From an uncultured Pelagibacteraceae bacterium (lineage in GTDB: Bacteria; Pseudomonadota; Alphaproteobacteria; Pelagibacterales; Pelagibacteraceae), in contig CACNRH010000002.1 of assembly GCA_902622825.1 (NCBI GenBank), positions 1-64,000 of the forward strand: DNA of 64,000 bases, read 5' to 3'. The position numbers and the translations under genes are program-made. Every line of letters begins with the position of its first letter. Within the stretch, counting starts at the first letter, position 1. The notes under the pieces are model-generated. The model was not told the DNA's origin, ran no database searches, and saw only the letters and a list, made by a program, of their open reading frames with translations. This document shows, piece after piece, positions 5,973 through 47,482 of the stretch.

Positions 5973-7757
5973 TTATTCCCCATTTATCTGACTTTTAAGC
6001 TTAACTAACTCAGAGTATGCATTTTCATCGAAGTTTTCTAACAATTTTTTTTCAAACGACTCAATTTTTTTTTGCTGAATTTCTTTATTGTAATCTGAAA
6101 TTAACTCATCAATTATATTAATTATTTCCTGATCATTTTTTCTATTGATTATTAGCCTTACATTAGAATTTAAGTATATATCTTCTATTAATTTTTTATG
6201 GGATGTGCTGAATTTTTCCATGATAATTTCTTTTGAGCAATTATCAGAAAGTATCAATTTAACTATTTCATTTTTAAAATCTTCGTTGTCATCTTTTGAA
6301 AAGCTAATTTTGCTGATTTCTTCAATTCTAGCATGAAATAACTTATCAAACTCAATTAACATAAATAAGATAGATAATTCTTTTATTTCTAAATTGTTAA
6401 GATTATTCTTTCTTTCCAGTATTTGTTTGGTTTCCTTTAAAATCTTTTCTTGCTTAAAATTGTAAATTTTTCTTGATCTTTTTAAATTTTGATTTGGTGT
6501 GAGTGACCTGAGTTTATCTAAATATTCCTCGGTTATATATTTTTTCAAAGTTTGATCTTTAATGTTGTTGCTTAATTTTTTTATATACTTTTCAAATCTT
6601 GAAATTTCGTAAGGATCAGACAGGTTTAATTTTTCTAAATATTTGTTCCATACATAATCTTTTATATCTATTTTGTTTCTTATTAATTTCAAAAATTCTT
6701 CTCTTCCATTTTTTTTAATAAAATCATCTGGATCAGTGGATATTGGCAATGAAGCAAAATAGATATTTTTATTTTCAGAAATATATGGAAAAGTATTTTC
6801 GGCGATCCTTAACGCAGCTTTTTGTCCACTTACGTCACCGTCTAATGATATTATTGGATTTGAAAAAAACCTCCAAACAAGTTCGACTTGATTTTCGGTA
6901 AAGGCTGTACCAGAATTAGCAATTACATTCTTAATATTATTTTCATACAAGCTTATAACATCCATGTAGCCCTCTACTACGATCACCTCATCCCTTTTGA
7001 CTCTAAAATTTCTAGCTCTATCAAGATTAAATAATATTTTACCTTTTTTATAAAATTCTGTCTCCGGAGAATTTATATACTTTGCTATTTTATCACCTGA
7101 AATAACTCTTCCTCCAAATGCGATTGGGTCGTTAGTCAAATTATTTATGGGAAAAATTATTCTTGAATGAAATCTATTTATAATCTTATTGCTCTTTTCG
7201 TTTTTATAAAATAGACCAGTTAACTCGATTTCATCATCATTATATTTTTTTTTAAGTATTTCATAAAAGTTTTCATTTCGATCAACATAACCAATTTTAA
7301 AATCCTTTAGGGTGTTTTTTGTCACTCCTCTTTTTTCTAAATAAAGTAAAACATTTTTATGTTCGCTCGAAAATAGCTTCTCATGAAAATGGTTTTGAAA
7401 ATCTTGATAAATATTTTTATACACTTGATATCTTTTTTCTTTTTTTTCATCGAATTTAGAAAATTTGTACTCTTGCATCCCTGCCTCTGAGGCAAGATAT
7501 TTTACTGCTTCACCAAATCTCATAGATTTTGTTTTCATTAAAAAATCAAAAATATTTCCATGCTCCCCAGTGCTAAAACAATGATAAAAACCTTTTTCAT
7601 CGCTTACGGTAAAAGATGGCGTTTTTTCGTTTTTGAATGGAGATAACCCTACGAATTCTTTTCCTCTTTTTTTTAAGTTTACTGTTTTTGCCACAACAGA
7701 CGAAACCTTTAGTCTTAATTTTATTTCCTCCAAATATTCTTTAGGATACTTCATCAA
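5973..7757 (-). CDS. dnaG: DNA primase
   Basis: Zn/TOPRIM primase motifs ([39 protein letters not shown]). Confidence 0.95.
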
Positions 7758-8206
7758 TTTAACAACTCTTTAATAATTTTACTTACTTTCGAAAAATCCA
7801 GAGTATCACCATGAGATTTTTTTAATGCACCCATTATTTTACCCATGTCTTTCATAGATTGAACATTTAATTGTTTGATAAGTGTTTCGCATAATTCTTT
7901 TGTTTGAGCTTCATCTAGTTGTTTTGGTAAAAATTCGTTAATGATTTTTATTTCTTTCGTCTCTTTGTCGTAGAGATCTTTTCTTCCAGCTTTTTGATAC
8001 GCTTCACATGAGTCGTTTCTTTGCTTAACCATTTTCTTAAGTATAGACGAAACATCATTATCTTTTAGGCTTTCCTCTTTAATTTTTTTAGCTATTTTTA
8101 AATCTTTAATTGCCGATATAATAAGTCTTAAGGTAGGATAAACTTCTTTATCTTTATTTTTAAGGCTTAGGGACAGCTTTTCTTCTATTTTTTTTTCGAG
8201 AGACAT
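7754..8206 (-). CDS. yqeY: GatB/YqeY domain protein
   Basis: YqeY family sequence (FLPKQLDEAQ..., MGKIMGALKKSHG); upstream of dnaG-rpoD. Confidence 0.9.
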   Translation of the reverse strand: MSLEKKIEEKLSLSLKNKDKEVYPTLRLIISAIKDLKIAKKIKEESLKDNDVSSILKKMVKQRNDSCEAYQKAGRKDLYDKETKEIKIINEFLPKQLDEAQTKELCETLIKQLNVQSMKDMGKIMGALKKSHGDTLDFSKVSKIIKELLN

Positions 8207-8255
8207 AATGAAGTTAATTTAATCACAAATTATATTTAAAATAAAAAGATCTTTC

Positions 8256-8284
8256 TTGACGATTTTTAAAGTTTTTCATATGTT
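8256..8284 (+). promoter_or_regulatory. putative sigma70 promoter for carAB
   Basis: TTGACG - 17 bp - TATGTT in the carA/yqeY divergent gap. Confidence 0.5.
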
Positions 8285-17485: not shown

Positions 17486-19657
17486 ATGAGTAATTCGTAC
17501 CAAGAAAAATTTAATGAACTGGAGAGTGGATCCACAGCAATCAAGAAAAAACTTGAGGGTGGTATTAAATTTAAAATTAAAAGTGATTTTCAACCCAGCG
17601 GTGATCAACCTGGAGCAATAAAAAAAATAATAAAAAATTTAAAGGGAGAAAAGCAAGAACAAGTTTTATTGGGAGTTACTGGTTCAGGCAAAACTTTCAC
17701 AATGGCTAAAGTAATCGAGAGTGTAAATAGACCTGCTCTGGTTTTAGCTCCAAATAAAACTTTAGCAGCTCAACTTTACGGAGAAATGAAAAGTTTTTTC
17801 CCAAACAACGCAGTGGAATATTTTGTCTCTTACTATGATTATTATACGCCTGAGGCGTATGTGCCTAGATCAGATACTTATATTGAAAAAGAGGCATCTA
17901 TTAATGAACAAATTGATAGAATGAGACACTCAGCAACTCGTTCTTTGTTAGAAAGAGACGATGTAATCATTGTTGCAAGTGTTTCTTGCATTTACGGTTT
18001 AGGTTCAGTTGAGGCATACTCTAAAATGACTATTACTCTTAAAAAAAATTATGAGTACGACAGAGATCAATTAATAAGAGCCTTTATCAATTTACAATAT
18101 AAAAGAAATGATCAAAATTTTTTTAGAGGGACTTTTAGAGTTAGAGGAGAAAATTTAGAAATTTTTCCATCTCATCTTGAAGATAGAGCATGGAGATTAA
18201 GTTTAAATTTCAATAAATTAGAAAAAATTGAAGAGTTTGATCCTTTAACAGGTGATAAAACAAATGATTACTCAATAATCAAAATATACGCTAATAGTCA
18301 TTACATCACTCCTAAACCAACTATCGACCAAGCGATCAAAGAAATTAAAAGTGAACTAGAGGTAACTTTAAAAAAACACGAAGAGAATAACAAATTACTT
18401 GAAGCACAAAGATTGAGGGAAAGAACGAAGTTTGACTTAGAAATGATTGAGGCTACAGGTACGTGCGCAGGTATTGAAAACTATTCAAGGTTTTTATCTG
18501 GTAGAAAGGCCGGAGAGCCACCGCCAACTTTGTTCGAATATTTTCCTGATAATACAATTATATTTGTCGATGAAAGTCACGTTACTGTTCCTCAGTTAAA
18601 TGGGATGTATAAAGGAGACCGTACAAGAAAAAGTACTTTGGCTGAATACGGCTTTAGGTTGCCATCTTGTATGGATAATAGACCTTTAAAATTTGAGGAA
18701 TGGGATTTAATGAGAACACAAACTGTTTTTGTTTCTGCTACTCCTGGTCCATGGGAGCTTAAGCAAACAAAAAATGAATATATAGATCAAATCATCAGGC
18801 CAACAGGTCTGATAGATCCACCTGTTGAAATTAGACCAGCTAAAACGCAAGTTGATGATTTAATGCATGAAGCCAAAGAAATTGTAAAAAAAGGGTACAG
18901 AATACTTGCAACCACACTAACAAAAAAAATGGCAGAAGACTTAACAGAATACCTTCACGAGAATGGTCTTAAAGTAAGATACATGCACTCAGATATAGAC
19001 ACTCTTGAAAGGATAGAAATTATAAGGGATTTAAGAATGGGAGTATTTGACATTCTTGTTGGAATAAATTTATTAAGAGAAGGACTGGATATACCTGAAT
19101 GCGCTCTTGTAGCAATACTAGATGCTGACAAAGAAGGGTTCTTAAGATCTGAAACATCTTTAATACAAACAATTGGACGAGCTGCCCGTAATGTTGATGG
19201 CAAGGTAATTTTATATGCAGATAAGATTACCAAAAGTATTGATAAAGCTATAAAGGAAACTGACAGAAGAAGAAATAAGCAGCTTGAATATAACAAAAAA
19301 AATGGAATAACCGCTGAGTCGGTTAAAAAGGAAATAAGCGATATATTAGAGTCGGTTTACGAGAAAGATTACGTAAAAATTAGTGAGGGTTCCAATGTAG
19401 GGGGGAATTTAAAGAAACATCTGAAAGCTTTAAATAGAAAAATGAAAGAGGCCGCGTCTAATTTAGAATTCGAAGAAGCTGCAAAAATAAGGGATGAAAT
19501 GAGAAAACTTGAAGCGAGTGAACTCGAAATAACTTTGAATCCAAAAATAACTCAATATAATTTAAAAAGTAAGGTTTATCCTAAGGGAAGATCAACTATG
19601 GGTATGCCTGGCACAAAGCCGAGAAAAGCGATTAAAAAATGGAAGCCAAAAAAATAA
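17486..19657 (+). CDS. uvrB: excinuclease ABC subunit B
   Basis: Walker [11 protein letters not shown], beta-hairpin [12 protein letters not shown], helicase motifs, UVR domain. Confidence 0.97.
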
Positions 19658-40192: not shown

Positions 40193-41890
40193 TTATGGCC
40201 CAGACACAAGTTTTTTTATAATATTTTTTCTCATATTGTCTTTGGTCTCTTTTAAGGTAAGTACGTAATTCCAATAATATCTTGCTTGTATCTTTTTGTT
40301 ATTCATCCATAAAATATCTCCAAAATGATCGTTAACTATTGGATCTGCAGGCATAAGTCTCACAGCTTTTTGTACGTGTATTTTGGCTTTTTCAAAATCT
40401 TTTAACTTATAAAAGACCCAGCCTAATGAGTCAGTTATATAAGGATCGTTTTTTCTAAGATTGTTTGCTTTCTTTAACATTATTAATGATTTTTCAAAAT
40501 TTATATTTTTTTCTATCCATGAGTACGCTAAATAATTTAAAACATAAGCTTGATTTGGATTCGCTTTTAATGAATTCATAAAATCTTTTTCTGCTTTATC
40601 CCACTTCCCTATTTGCTCGAATGAAATGCCTCTTCCATCTGTAACCTCCGGATAGATTGGGTGAGTAATATCAATTTCTTGTAAAATGAGTGTATATAAT
40701 TTTATTGCATCGTTATGTTTATTGTTATTTTTTAGGTAATCTGCAAATTCCAGCTTCTGGTAAATGTTAGGTTTTAATAATTTGTTAAAACTTTGCTTTA
40801 AGAGTTTTATACCCTCTTGTTGTCTGTCAGTATTAATGTAAATGTTTGCAATCTCTTTATTTGCAAACCAGTGATAAATATCTCCATAATTTTTTAACTT
40901 ATTGTAAATTTTTTTTGCCTCATTAGTGTTTTCAATAAAATTAAGATTTTCTGCAAAAAGAATATTATAAGATATGAAATCTGGATTTAAAAATTTAGCA
41001 AGATTAATATAAAAATTTGAAACAGAATAGAATTTTTGCGAAGAAAGGGCGTTAGATACTAAGTAAAATAACTCTGCCATAACATGTAAATTATTTTGAC
41101 AATCAAATATATTTTTTAAATTCTCATCTCTCTCAACATCAAGCTTAAGTTGATTTATTAGTAAATTTCTTGGTGTTTTTCTTAAAGCAACTTTAATTGC
41201 CTTGTCATACTCTAATGATTTATTTTTATTGTTAAGATAGTTGGCAAAGAAAAAATTATATCTGTTAAAATTTGCCGACTTATCATTTACCAAATCAAAA
41301 AAAACTTTACTTGTTGAAGCTTTATCAAAGTAACAATTCAAAAAAGATTTTTGAATTTTTTTTATATTTTCAAATCTAATATCTATTTTCTCTAATTTTA
41401 CTATTGAGTCTCGATAACTCAAATCTTCAAGATTTGACCATTGTAATATTAATATTGATAATAATTTTTGTATCGGGTCTAAATTCTTCCGTTGATAATT
41501 CCTTAATAAATACTTTTTAGCTAAAAAAGGTTTTTTATTTTTAAGATGATATATACCTACTATTAAGTCGCTTTCAAAATTATTGATTTGATTTTGCTCA
41601 AGTTTTCTTGAGTATCTAAAGGCATCAGTAAATTTATCGAGATTTATTAATGAGTATAAATATATTTGTGAAAATGTGTAATGATCCTTTTCAAGTCCAT
41701 TGATGTTTTTGAGAAATTTGTATGATCTTTCGTAATCATTTTCATTAAGAGAAATAACACCTGAAAGATAGTTTGATAAGTCTTTAGCCTTATATGTTTT
41801 TTCTAGGGAAATAGCTGGAAATAGTGAAAATAAAAACGTGATCTTTATGGCAAATAATGTAATGATTATATTATAGATTAATTTTTTCAT
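40193..41890 (-). CDS. TPR-repeat protein
   Basis: C-terminal TPR motifs (AYVLNYLAYSWIEK..., DPYITDSLGWVFYKLKDFEKA); start MKKLIYNI at 41890. Confidence 0.75.
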   Translation of the reverse strand: MKKLIYNIIITLFAIKITFLFSLFPAISLEKTYKAKDLSNYLSGVISLNENDYERSYKFLKNINGLEKDHYTFSQIYLYSLINLDKFTDAFRYSRKLEQNQINNFESDLIVGIYHLKNKKPFLAKKYLLRNYQRKNLDPIQKLLSILILQWSNLEDLSYRDSIVKLEKIDIRFENIKKIQKSFLNCYFDKASTSKVFFDLVNDKSANFNRYNFFFANYLNNKNKSLEYDKAIKVALRKTPRNLLINQLKLDVERDENLKNIFDCQNNLHVMAELFYLVSNALSSQKFYSVSNFYINLAKFLNPDFISYNILFAENLNFIENTNEAKKIYNKLKNYGDIYHWFANKEIANIYINTDRQQEGIKLLKQSFNKLLKPNIYQKLEFADYLKNNNKHNDAIKLYTLILQEIDITHPIYPEVTDGRGISFEQIGKWDKAEKDFMNSLKANPNQAYVLNYLAYSWIEKNINFEKSLIMLKKANNLRKNDPYITDSLGWVFYKLKDFEKAKIHVQKAVRLMPADPIVNDHFGDILWMNNKKIQARYYWNYVLTLKETKDNMRKNIIKKLVSGP

Positions 41891-41894
41891 AACA

Positions 41895-42602
41895 ATGAAA
41901 TTAAATAACAAATTAACAAAATTAATTAAATACTATAGTTTAATTAATCACAATTATATCTTTAAAAATGCCCCTATTAATCGCTATAAAAACAAAGACA
42001 AAAACGGTTTATCTTCAGATAAATCGTTGAATATTTTAAGAAAAGAAATTTCTTTAATCAAAAATTGTGAACTCAAAAAAAATGCTAATAATTTAGTATT
42101 TGCTGATGGAAACCCGGGCGCAAAAGTAATGATTATTGGTGAAGGACCTGGCGCAAACGAAGATAAGGTGGGCAAGCCATTTGTTGGGAGAGCTGGACAA
42201 TTATTAGACAAAATGTTGAATTCAATCAATCTTGATCGAACAAATGTTTATATTACTAACGTAGTAAATTATAGGCCGCCTGAAAATAGAAAACCAACAG
42301 AGGCAGAAATAGAGAGATATCTTCCTTTTTTAATTAAACATATCTTAATAATAAAGCCAAAAATAATTATGTTGCTTGGTAGTACTGCATTAAGTGCGTT
42401 GATAGGCGAAAATGAGGTAATATCAAAAGCTAGGGGTAAATGGCATGATAAAGTTTTTGAAAATACAAGGATATCGATTATGCCATCTTTTCATCCAGCA
42501 TTTTTAATGAGACAACCAGAGCAAAAAAAGCTTGCTTGGATAGACTTAAAAATGATCAGGGATAAAATTAAAAAACTTGGTATAAAAATTGAAAAGAGTT
42601 AA
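41895..42602 (+). CDS. family 4 uracil-DNA glycosylase
   Basis: MIIGEGPGANEDKVGKPFVGRAGQLLDKML, MPSFHPAFLMRQP. Confidence 0.93.
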   Translation: MKLNNKLTKLIKYYSLINHNYIFKNAPINRYKNKDKNGLSSDKSLNILRKEISLIKNCELKKNANNLVFADGNPGAKVMIIGEGPGANEDKVGKPFVGRAGQLLDKMLNSINLDRTNVYITNVVNYRPPENRKPTEAEIERYLPFLIKHILIIKPKIIMLLGSTALSALIGENEVISKARGKWHDKVFENTRISIMPSFHPAFLMRQPEQKKLAWIDLKMIRDKIKKLGIKIEKS

Positions 42603-44320: not shown

Positions 44321-45448
44321 CTAATTGTAAACTTTTCCTAAATACAAATTTAAAAATTTTTTATTTTTTGTCATGGTTTTCATTAAATAGTTTCTTATTT
44401 TTGTTAAAAAAGAATTCGATAAATGAAAAGAAAAATAATTTAGTTTAGATCTATAAATTACGGCATTTATTTTTTTGGATCTTTTTTCGTGGTAAGTAGA
44501 GTGAGCATTTGTAACATTTTTGCTCAATAAAAGAGACAGCTCATAGGCATCTTCAATTGATTGTGAAGCTCCTTGTGCCATTGTTGGTAAAAGTGTGTGA
44601 AAAGCATCACCAAGATAAAAAACCTTATCATTCTTAGGTTTTATAATTTTATTTGAAACATATATTGGCCAAGATTTTGTATCTTCACTAAAAATATCCG
44701 AAAACTTTTTATTTTGTTTTAAAATATTTTTTTCTAATATTGAATTAATATTTTCAGAATTAAACTTTGTCCTTGAAATTAAAACCAAATTTAGATCACC
44801 TTTCATATTTATTGGATAAGAAACTATATGAGAATTTGAACCCATAAATATCGAAATATTTTGATTATCAAATCCCTCTAGGTTGGAAGATTTCAATATT
44901 TTTCTTATTGCTACTGAGCCGGAATATTTTGGTTTGTAACTTTTATTTTCTATTATCGTTTTAGTATTTGAAAAAACTCCATCGCAAACACAAATATAAT
45001 CTACAAGATCGTTTGTATTGTCTTCAAAATTTATGAGCATCTTTCCTTTAAGCTCTGAAATTTTTTTCACAACTTTGTTAAATTTTAAATTATTTTTATA
45101 AACTTTTTCTTTTAAAAATTCTATCAGTGTCGACCTTCTCAGAGTCGTATATTTAACGTCGGATCTGTTAAAAACTTTCAAATCTAGTTCACAAATTTTT
45201 TTATTTTTAATTGAAAAAAAGTTTATTTTATTTGGATTAAAAATCTGTTTTTTATCTATGTTATCAAAATCAATATCATTGAGAATTGAAATGCTATTAG
45301 TAGACAATTGAATTCCATAACCCTCATCAAATTTTAAACCGTCATCTTTTTCGTAGATCATAAAATCACAATTTTGGTTTTTTTTTAATAAATTGCCCAA
45401 TGCTAAACCTGCTATACCCGAACCTATTATGGCTATTTTTTTTTTCAT
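44321..45448 (-). CDS. FAD-dependent monooxygenase
   Basis: IAIIGSGIAGLALGNLL, FYLGDAFHTLLPTMAQGASQSIEDA. Confidence 0.85.
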   Translation of the reverse strand: MKKKIAIIGSGIAGLALGNLLKKNQNCDFMIYEKDDGLKFDEGYGIQLSTNSISILNDIDFDNIDKKQIFNPNKINFFSIKNKKICELDLKVFNRSDVKYTTLRRSTLIEFLKEKVYKNNLKFNKVVKKISELKGKMLINFEDNTNDLVDYICVCDGVFSNTKTIIENKSYKPKYSGSVAIRKILKSSNLEGFDNQNISIFMGSNSHIVSYPINMKGDLNLVLISRTKFNSENINSILEKNILKQNKKFSDIFSEDTKSWPIYVSNKIIKPKNDKVFYLGDAFHTLLPTMAQGASQSIEDAYELSLLLSKNVTNAHSTYHEKRSKKINAVIYRSKLNYFSFHLSNSFLTKIRNYLMKTMTKNKKFLNLYLGKVYN

Positions 45449-46440
45449 TAATATAATTTCTCTATATGATTTATTATTTTTTTTGTGAATGACGGTATAA
45501 CTTCCTTATTAGAACCGATCGAATGCCACTCAAAGTTTTTTGGAATTGTTTTTGAAAATTTGTAATACAAGTTAATATCTAACTTTTTATTTGAAATAGA
45601 ATTACTATAATTTTTTAATAAAGACCAATTTTTTTTATTATTTTTTTCTCTAATCATGATTTTTGGTATTAAAAAATCTTTTAAAAAACCAAGATTATTC
45701 TTTTTTGTAAGTCCAATTTGTTTTCTTTTAGTAACATAGCAAAAGATATCCAATTTTTTTGTTGTCTTTTTAATTTTTGTTTTTGTGATAGAGACTGTCT
45801 TAGAATTTTTGAACAAACAGTTCTTTTTTATCGGACATTTCTCGCATAGAGGTTTGGGTCTGCATATAAGAGCTCCAAACTCCATTAACGCCTCAACGAA
45901 ATCTGAATTTCTATTATGAAAAAAAAATGCTCGTTGATTATCACTTTTAATTTTTTCCTGATTTAACAGGTCTACATTTTTATTTAAAATTCTTGAAAAA
46001 ATACGTTTTACATTTCCATCAAAAGCTATAGTGGGATTATTATAGATTAAAGCTAAAAGAACGTTTGCTGTATATTCCCCCACCCCAGGTAATTTTTTAA
46101 TTTCATCAAAATCTCTTGGCAATTTAAAATTGTTCTTTTCTAATTTTTTGGCTGAAGCTAATAAAAATCTTGCTCGTCTATAGTATCCGAGTCCTTCCCA
46201 AGCTTTCATTACATCTTTTTCTTTGGCTCGTGATAAAGATTTTAGATTAGGATACTTGTCAATAAACCTGTTAAAATACGGGATTACAGTTTGAACTTGA
46301 GTTTGCTGTAGCATAAATTCACTTAAAATCCTAAAATAAACCGCCTGTTTGTGGTTATTTTGCACACGCCAAGGTAGTGAACGTTTGTTATTATCATACC
46401 ATGCTAAAATAATTTTTGATAAATTAAAGTCTATATGCAT
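45448..46440 (-). CDS. mutY: A/G-specific adenine glycosylase
   Basis: LPWR, LPGVGEYTANVLL HhH, FeS CxxCPIKKNC; start MHIDFN at 46440. Confidence 0.94.
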   Translation of the reverse strand: MHIDFNLSKIILAWYDNNKRSLPWRVQNNHKQAVYFRILSEFMLQQTQVQTVIPYFNRFIDKYPNLKSLSRAKEKDVMKAWEGLGYYRRARFLLASAKKLEKNNFKLPRDFDEIKKLPGVGEYTANVLLALIYNNPTIAFDGNVKRIFSRILNKNVDLLNQEKIKSDNQRAFFFHNRNSDFVEALMEFGALICRPKPLCEKCPIKKNCLFKNSKTVSITKTKIKKTTKKLDIFCYVTKRKQIGLTKKNNLGFLKDFLIPKIMIREKNNKKNWSLLKNYSNSISNKKLDINLYYKFSKTIPKNFEWHSIGSNKEVIPSFTKKIINHIEKLY

Positions 46441-46914
46441 AAAAAATTCAATATTAATAAAACTGGTAATTTCATACAAGGTTTAAGACCTTTTTCAAAC
46501 ACCATTCCAAAAAATTTAAAACAAATTTTCAAAAAAAGGGGAAAAAATTTTTCTAATTTAGTGGATAACTGGAGTAAAATAGTTGGTAAAAATATATCAA
46601 ATGTGAGCTACCCGGTAAAAATTTTAAATGATAGAACTGCCAATAAGACATCTTTAGTATTAAATATTATGCGTGGAAACGAATTGGAAATTGAATATTC
46701 TAAATCAGAAATAATCGATAAAGTTAATAGTTTTTTTGGGTATAAATTTCTAAATTCATTAAAATTGACATCCACACAAGCAAAAAAAACTGACAAAAAT
46801 AAAGTTATGATTAAAAGAAAAAGATACGAGAAGCAGCTAGATAATATAGAAAATGAGAAACTTAAAACGCAATTAAACAAATTAATAAAGGCATTTAATG
46901 AAAAAAATTGTTAA
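46435..46914 (+). CDS. DUF721/DciA-like protein
   Basis: GLRPFSNTIPKNLKQIFKKRGKNFSNLVDNWSKIVGK resembles DUF721 N-domain; upstream of dsbA-like and smc. Confidence 0.7.
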   Translation: MHKKFNINKTGNFIQGLRPFSNTIPKNLKQIFKKRGKNFSNLVDNWSKIVGKNISNVSYPVKILNDRTANKTSLVLNIMRGNELEIEYSKSEIIDKVNSFFGYKFLNSLKLTSTQAKKTDKNKVMIKRKRYEKQLDNIENEKLKTQLNKLIKAFNEKNC

Positions 46915-47482
46915 ATATTTCTATGTATTGTTTTTTTTGATATTACAAAACACACTTGTTTTTGCAAATATTTCCATTGGTGAAAAAAATGCTAAGGTAA
47001 ATGTGAAAGTTTTTTCATCATTAACTTGTCCTCATTGTGCGAGTTTTCATATTAAGATTTTTGACAAATTAAAAGAGGAATATATTGACAATAATAAAGT
47101 GCATTATGAGCATTTTAGTTTCCCTCTAGATTTAGCTGCTCTAAACGCTGAGAAAATAATAAAGTGTACGTCTAATAAAAATATTGCTTTTAAATTACTT
47201 GATAATATTTATAGAAATCAAAATAAATGGGCGGTAGGTGAAGATATTAATAAAATTAATAATTCACTAATAAATTTAAGTGTTAAATTTGACCTAAAAA
47301 AAGAAGAGCTTGACAAATGTCTGAAAGACGAAAATTTACAAGATCAAATATTAAGTCAAAGAATAGAGGCACAAAAAAATTACAAAATATCATCAACCCC
47401 AACCATTTTTATCAATGATAAAGTTTATGATGGGAAACACGATTTTAAATCTTTTAAAAAACAAATAGATAAGAATTTATAA
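46898..47482 (+). CDS. DsbA-family thioredoxin-fold protein
   Basis: Signal peptide, SLTCPHCASFH CxxC, ISSTPTIFIND. Confidence 0.9.
   Translation: MKKIVKYFYVLFFLILQNTLVFANISIGEKNAKVNVKVFSSLTCPHCASFHIKIFDKLKEEYIDNNKVHYEHFSFPLDLAALNAEKIIKCTSNKNIAFKLLDNIYRNQNKWAVGEDINKINNSLINLSVKFDLKKEELDKCLKDENLQDQILSQRIEAQKNYKISSTPTIFINDKVYDGKHDFKSFKKQIDKNL

Follow-up and report, generated by a model that had tools for sequence, protein, structure and literature searches.

mutY and dciA share a conserved six-base head-to-head start-codon overlap in SAR11 (Pelagibacteraceae), with predicted promoters inside the opposite genes

Our results identify a divergent overlapping gene pair in a SAR11 genome, in which mutY and dciA, encoded on opposite strands, share six bases (ATGCAT) of their 5' coding regions as overlapping start codons, and two operons leave from this one six-base point. 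Our preferred reading, to which we give a probability of roughly 0.77, is that this is a conserved overlap fixed by genome streamlining, in which the core promoter of each operon would be embedded in the opposite gene, within its first codons. The first-pass annotation had described ATGCAT as the shared head-to-head starts of both genes and had proposed related genomes as a check; the bases of the window, the comparative evidence, and the presence of the exact overlap in 91 of 91 species from seven genera bear this out. The palindrome has no separate meaning, because any two ATG starts placed in this way give ATGCAT; CATG and CATATG are likewise geometric.

The window, that is, the whole stretch of 64,000 nucleotides that was analysed, comes from contig C2 of a genome, 680 kb in size and 67% complete, of a Pelagibacteraceae (SAR11) genus; its closest named relative, an 'uncultured Pelagibacteraceae bacterium', shares 97% of DciA. 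The features around the junction are listed in Table 1. DciA scores 39.7 bits against PF05258, for which the cut-off is 24. MutY carries the HhH-GPD domain and the LPWR motif and matches solved MutY chains (best E 1.5e-46), yet its match to TIGR01084 mutY (E 1.8e-68, 231 bits) stays under the curated 286-bit NCBIfam equivalog cut-off. As a side observation, the SMC of this operon is just 814 aa long, which suggests a shortened coiled coil; bacterial SMC proteins usually have about 1,150-1,200 aa.

Table 1. Features of the mutY/dciA junction and of the two operons (positions in the window).
Feature	Position	Strand	Evidence
ATGCAT, overlapping starts of dciA (+) and mutY (-), 6 bp	46435..46440	.	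read from sequence; kept in 91/91 species, seven genera
dciA (DUF721/DciA, replicative helicase operator), 159 aa	46435..46914	+	PF05258, E 5.9e-10
mutY (A/G-specific adenine glycosylase), 330 aa	45448..46440	-	HhH-GPD, E 2.6e-19; TIGR01084; PDB MutY
DsbA/thioredoxin-like gene, second in dciA operon, 17-bp overlap with dciA	46898..47482	+	PF13462, E 9.3e-36
smc, third in dciA operon, 814 aa	47485..49929	+	PF02463, E 3.2e-46
FAD-dependent monooxygenase-like gene after mutY, 1-bp overlap	44321..45448	-	PF01494, E 6.9e-12
TGATAAATT, predicted extended -10 (TGnTAnnnT) of dciA operon, in mutY codons 6-8	46417..46425	+	126-species motif
TAATAT, predicted -10 of mutY, in dciA codons 6-8	46451..46456	-	TATTAT in 63/91 relatives

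The exact overlap was found in every sampled species of the genus of the window, g1 (70 species), and of six further genera comprising 21 species, namely g2 (10), g3 (6), g6 (2), g10, g11, and g14. None was found in g4, g5, g9, g12, and the family f2, nor in the one g13 species, which reads CATATG; the large sister genus g4 mostly has an abutting CATATG, and lineages further away show either CATG or small gaps. These genus counts are preferred to the invariance of the six ATGCAT columns (90 of 90), which is partly by construction, the loci having been picked for ATGCAT. The flanking codons vary: the amino acid at DciA codon 3 changes about 29 times on the tree, and MutY codon 3 is ATA, ATT, TTA, or others across the ATGCAT species. 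In a tree of MutY and DciA built with the N-termini removed, g11 and g14, which have ATGCAT, stand beside g4 with its mostly CATATG junctions, and g13 (CATATG) falls inside an ATGCAT group. Parsimony slightly favours ATGCAT as ancestral to the clade, with two changes against three. In ATGCAT species, MutY begins Met-His-Ile/Leu with a codon 3 that is one or two bases away from ATG, and 15 CATATG species have CAA, which differs from CAT by one base, as their next dciA codon. The overlap states are thus in frame and close, and relocating the mutY start by two codons accounts for the change between ATGCAT and CATATG. The gene set and order are those of the mutY / dciA / trx-smc neighbourhood reported earlier in alphaproteobacteria (PMC5109545); in contrast to the overlap in the window, other sampled alphaproteobacteria with this neighbourhood have a gap between mutY and dciA (40 and 78 bp at the two resolved junctions).

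Synonymous differences, counted in disjoint species pairs, are at their lowest for the whole of mutY and of dciA at the 5' ends, with 13 of 237 at MutY codons 7-12 against 26% in the gene body and 6 of 207 at DciA codons 4-9 against 32%. The non-ATGCAT group showed the same pattern, with 0 of 76 at MutY codons 4-9. Among controls from the same operons, smc (0.33) and the FAD gene (0.43) had recovered at codons 7-12, while dsbA, which overlaps dciA, stayed at 0.13; most wide-gap controls had also recovered there (0.23-0.36), and one was low throughout (4 of 68 over codons 2-13). At codons 2-6 the control genes dip to 0.11-0.24, one of them to 0.00. A duplicate locus (L079) had been misplaced into comparison group B in the synonymous-pair and the shuffle/junction tests, with negligible effect. 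Low synonymous rates at gene 5' ends are general and partly mutational (PMC12725619). Because such dips are general and one control is equally low, the rate test alone is no proof; since the low rates may be mutational, a motif was sought, and it is the motif test that carries the weight.

This test used an alignment of 126 Pelagibacteraceae species anchored on the invariant Trp14 of MutY. In all 126, codon 7 is NTA (Leu, Ile, Val) and codon 8 is NCA, and these are the only two of 98 comparable columns with zero third-base changes (mean 29.4). For residue 8 itself, about 28 changes were counted among Ser, Pro, Thr, and Ala, which are all encoded here by four-fold degenerate NCN codons; when it is Ser, the codon is TCA in 48 of 49 cases, against an expected 0.31. 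Read on the dciA strand, codons 8-7-6 give TGnTAnnnT (T 126, G 126, n, T 126, A 126, n, n, n, T 121), and the variation falls exactly at the n positions. The motif stops 9 nt short of the dciA ATG in 79 of the species and 12 nt short of it in another 31, so that 110 of the 126 have one of these promoter-like distances. The conserved TG, TA, and final T, the free n positions, and the distance match those of an extended -10 element, and the motif occurs in 91 of 91 ATGCAT species, against 38% under synonymous shuffling. Two g4 species carry the motif in its perfect form, TGATATAAT. The usual spacing of about 7 bp from -10 to start would put the beginning of the dciA transcript near 46432, two or three bases ahead of its ATG.

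A -10-like element of mutY is also probable in dciA codons 6-8, and it is weaker than the one predicted for dciA. On the minus strand, 63 of 91 species have TATTAT at a distance of 11-16 bases ahead of the mutY ATG, and the first two bases of the hexamer are T in 89 of 90 and A in 85 of 90; the window has the weak form TAATAT, and the spacing of the element differs in g4. The dciA codons under it avoid C-ending codons, and codon 7 is AAT in 70 of 70. The mutY transcript would start near 46444, and part of mutY transcription could come from deeper inside dciA. The earlier proposal that each promoter lies inside the opposite gene thus gains strong support for dciA, from the invariant TGnTAnnnT, and moderate support for mutY. 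A candidate mutY -35 (TTGTAT, in a conserved IQG motif) was dropped, as dciA N-terminal indels shift it by 3-9 nt among species.

Two further codon biases were seen near the 5' end of dciA. In g4, the rare codons AAG CAG at dciA codons 8-9 (for example, L057 and L109) are kept in 21 of 22 CATATG species, and this different and very conserved stretch is perhaps part of the g4 mutY promoter. At DciA codon 12 of ATGCAT species (for example, L007 and L012), Phe is TTC in 34 of 38 cases against 0.13 expected, and Tyr is TAC in 15 of 15, which amounts to an unexplained conserved G at -30 on the mutY strand.

A convincing -35 was found on neither the dciA nor the mutY side. TGnTAnnnT showed no clear enrichment ahead of the other first-in-operon genes of this genome, so that a genome-wide extended -10 signal was lacking, and TATAAT was only slightly enriched near starts (0.59 against 0.49 shuffled). 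Maximum -10 scores gave only a modest z against synonymous shuffles, with the first segment still ranked top in each gene, and a mechanical promoter scan returned fewer sites than in shuffles. No SAR11 transcription start map was found in the literature searched.

According to the preferred reading, the ATGCAT overlap would have been fixed during genome streamlining in SAR11, and with the intergenic DNA gone, the core promoter of each operon would have been written into the opposite gene: TGnTAnnnT in mutY would be the extended -10 driving dciA-dsbA-smc, and the TATTAT element in dciA would drive mutY. Each RNA polymerase would occupy the opening codons of the other gene and start a few bases before its own ATG, and the resulting near-leaderless mRNAs would not need a Shine-Dalgarno sequence. 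The first-pass annotation had seen no clear Shine-Dalgarno on either side, and this holds across the relatives (2 of 91 and 0 of 91 species); the absence is unremarkable because such sequences are scarce genome-wide (10-19% of genes, against a background of 5-7%). Placed one on each side of ATGCAT, the two predicted -10 elements point inward, and the predicted starts cross by about 13 bases. With facing promoters and polymerases crossing each other, the two operons would exclude one another at any instant, and simultaneous use of both promoters appears unlikely because the polymerase footprints would overlap. Whether such exclusion matters is a question of promoter strength; for the bidirectional promoters of E. 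coli, no competition is seen at basal activity (PMC12825309). We infer transcription starts, leaderless initiation, and promoter competition from the sequences. A stronger version, a stable two-way switch in which the facing promoters keep mutY and dciA-dsbA-smc, and with them DNA repair and replication genes, mutually exclusive per initiation event and promoter needs dictate both N-termini, seems rather doubtful.

Could the overlap be an artefact, with one of the genes beginning elsewhere? Published divergent overlaps of more than 60 bp were all misannotations (PMC2478687), and an in-frame TTG lies 39 nt ahead of the mutY ATG in the window, as an upstream in-frame TTG does in many relatives. 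In other relatives, however, mutY is preceded by an in-frame stop 21 nt before its ATG, and the length of the MutY N-terminus fits solved MutY chains (query residue 8 corresponds to residue 7 of E. coli MutY). The dciA gene is unable to start upstream because of nearby in-frame stops, at -15 in the window and at -3 to -24 in relatives, present in every ATGCAT species, and a start codon between stop and ATG was seen in 3 of 90 of them. Use of both starts in the cell is also supported, because ATGCAT is kept in 91 of 91 species. On this comparative evidence, we take both starts to be real and the junction to be neither chance nor a start-calling error, and consider the artefact highly improbable.

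If the starts are real, the low 5' synonymous change might still reflect general effects, such as AT-rich codons for open mRNA or a lower mutation rate, with the promoters lying at other places in the adjacent genes. Effects of this kind have been described (PMC12725619), and the dip of the controls at codons 2-6 and the one uniformly low wide-gap control agree with them; but most controls recover by codons 7-12, the equally AT-rich TCT and AGT are avoided at MutY codon 8, and the third base A of this codon is held through all its residue changes while the first base is free, the reverse of coding constraint. We judge this explanation quite unlikely. Still less probable, and in our view very unlikely, is one symmetric bidirectional promoter centred on the junction and driving both genes. 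The genes are divergent, the junction is palindromic and AT-rich, and promoters of this type abound in E. coli (PMC12825309), yet instead of one shared symmetric -10 there are two separate conserved -10-like elements, about 31 bp apart, that flank ATGCAT and face each other.

A survey of about 450 kb, or about two thirds of the genome, with our own simple ORF caller yielded 44 divergent pairs, 10 of them with a gap below 30 bp; mutY/dciA was the sole ATGCAT junction, and one further pair, the thiE-like one below, reads CATATG. Closely spaced divergent starts are thus common in this genome, and mutY/dciA is its most compact well-supported divergent case. Three other pairs were recorded. A thiE-like gene (L180:16928-17485, minus strand) and a PLP-binding alanine-racemase-like gene (17486-18136, plus strand) meet head to head at CATATG, which is kept in 10 of 12 resolved junctions of the genus, and synonymous change is low at the 5' ends of both genes; this is probably another pair with embedded promoters. 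In the window, a TPR protein gene (40193-41890, minus strand) and a uracil-DNA glycosylase gene (41895-42602, plus strand) diverge across a 4-bp gap. A periplasmic binding protein-like gene (L181:6257-7411, minus strand) and a tetrapyrrole methylase family gene (7417-8256, plus strand) are separated by 1-6 bp in most of the genus, with synonymous constraint falling chiefly on the minus-strand gene.

Divergent overlaps tend to be set aside as annotation errors, both genes needing upstream regulatory DNA. The mutY/dciA pair suggests that streamlining can move this regulatory DNA into the opposite gene and that the arrangement can be kept family-wide. Invariant third codon positions under a changing amino acid may offer a route to promoters in uncultured, gene-dense bacteria, and the pair yields specific start-site and mutation predictions where promoters are almost unmapped. 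Our analysis adds the deep conservation, an evolutionary route from one overlap state to another, and a footprint of the predicted dciA promoter in the codons of mutY, as read by comparison.

Among known systems, the closest are divergent overlapping prokaryotic genes, in which opposite start regions overlap by a few bases, as here. They account for about 1% of the curated set (457 of 42,055 overlaps; PMC2478687) and are strongly under-represented, which has been ascribed to regulatory needs (PMC2174442). Unlike typical cases, mutY/dciA is kept in 91 species and has a visible, predicted embedded promoter; within a class that is known but rare and often artefactual, it appears to be a deeply conserved, real variant. 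The bidirectional promoters of E. coli resemble it in the compact divergent expression of two genes, but they share one symmetric -10, with starts beside or within it, whereas mutY/dciA has two facing -10-like elements in coding sequence and none shared (PMC12825309). The dciA-side element has the same TGnTAnnnT with free n as extended -10 promoters, and differs from them in sitting within conserved coding sequence and in being predicted from codon constraint.
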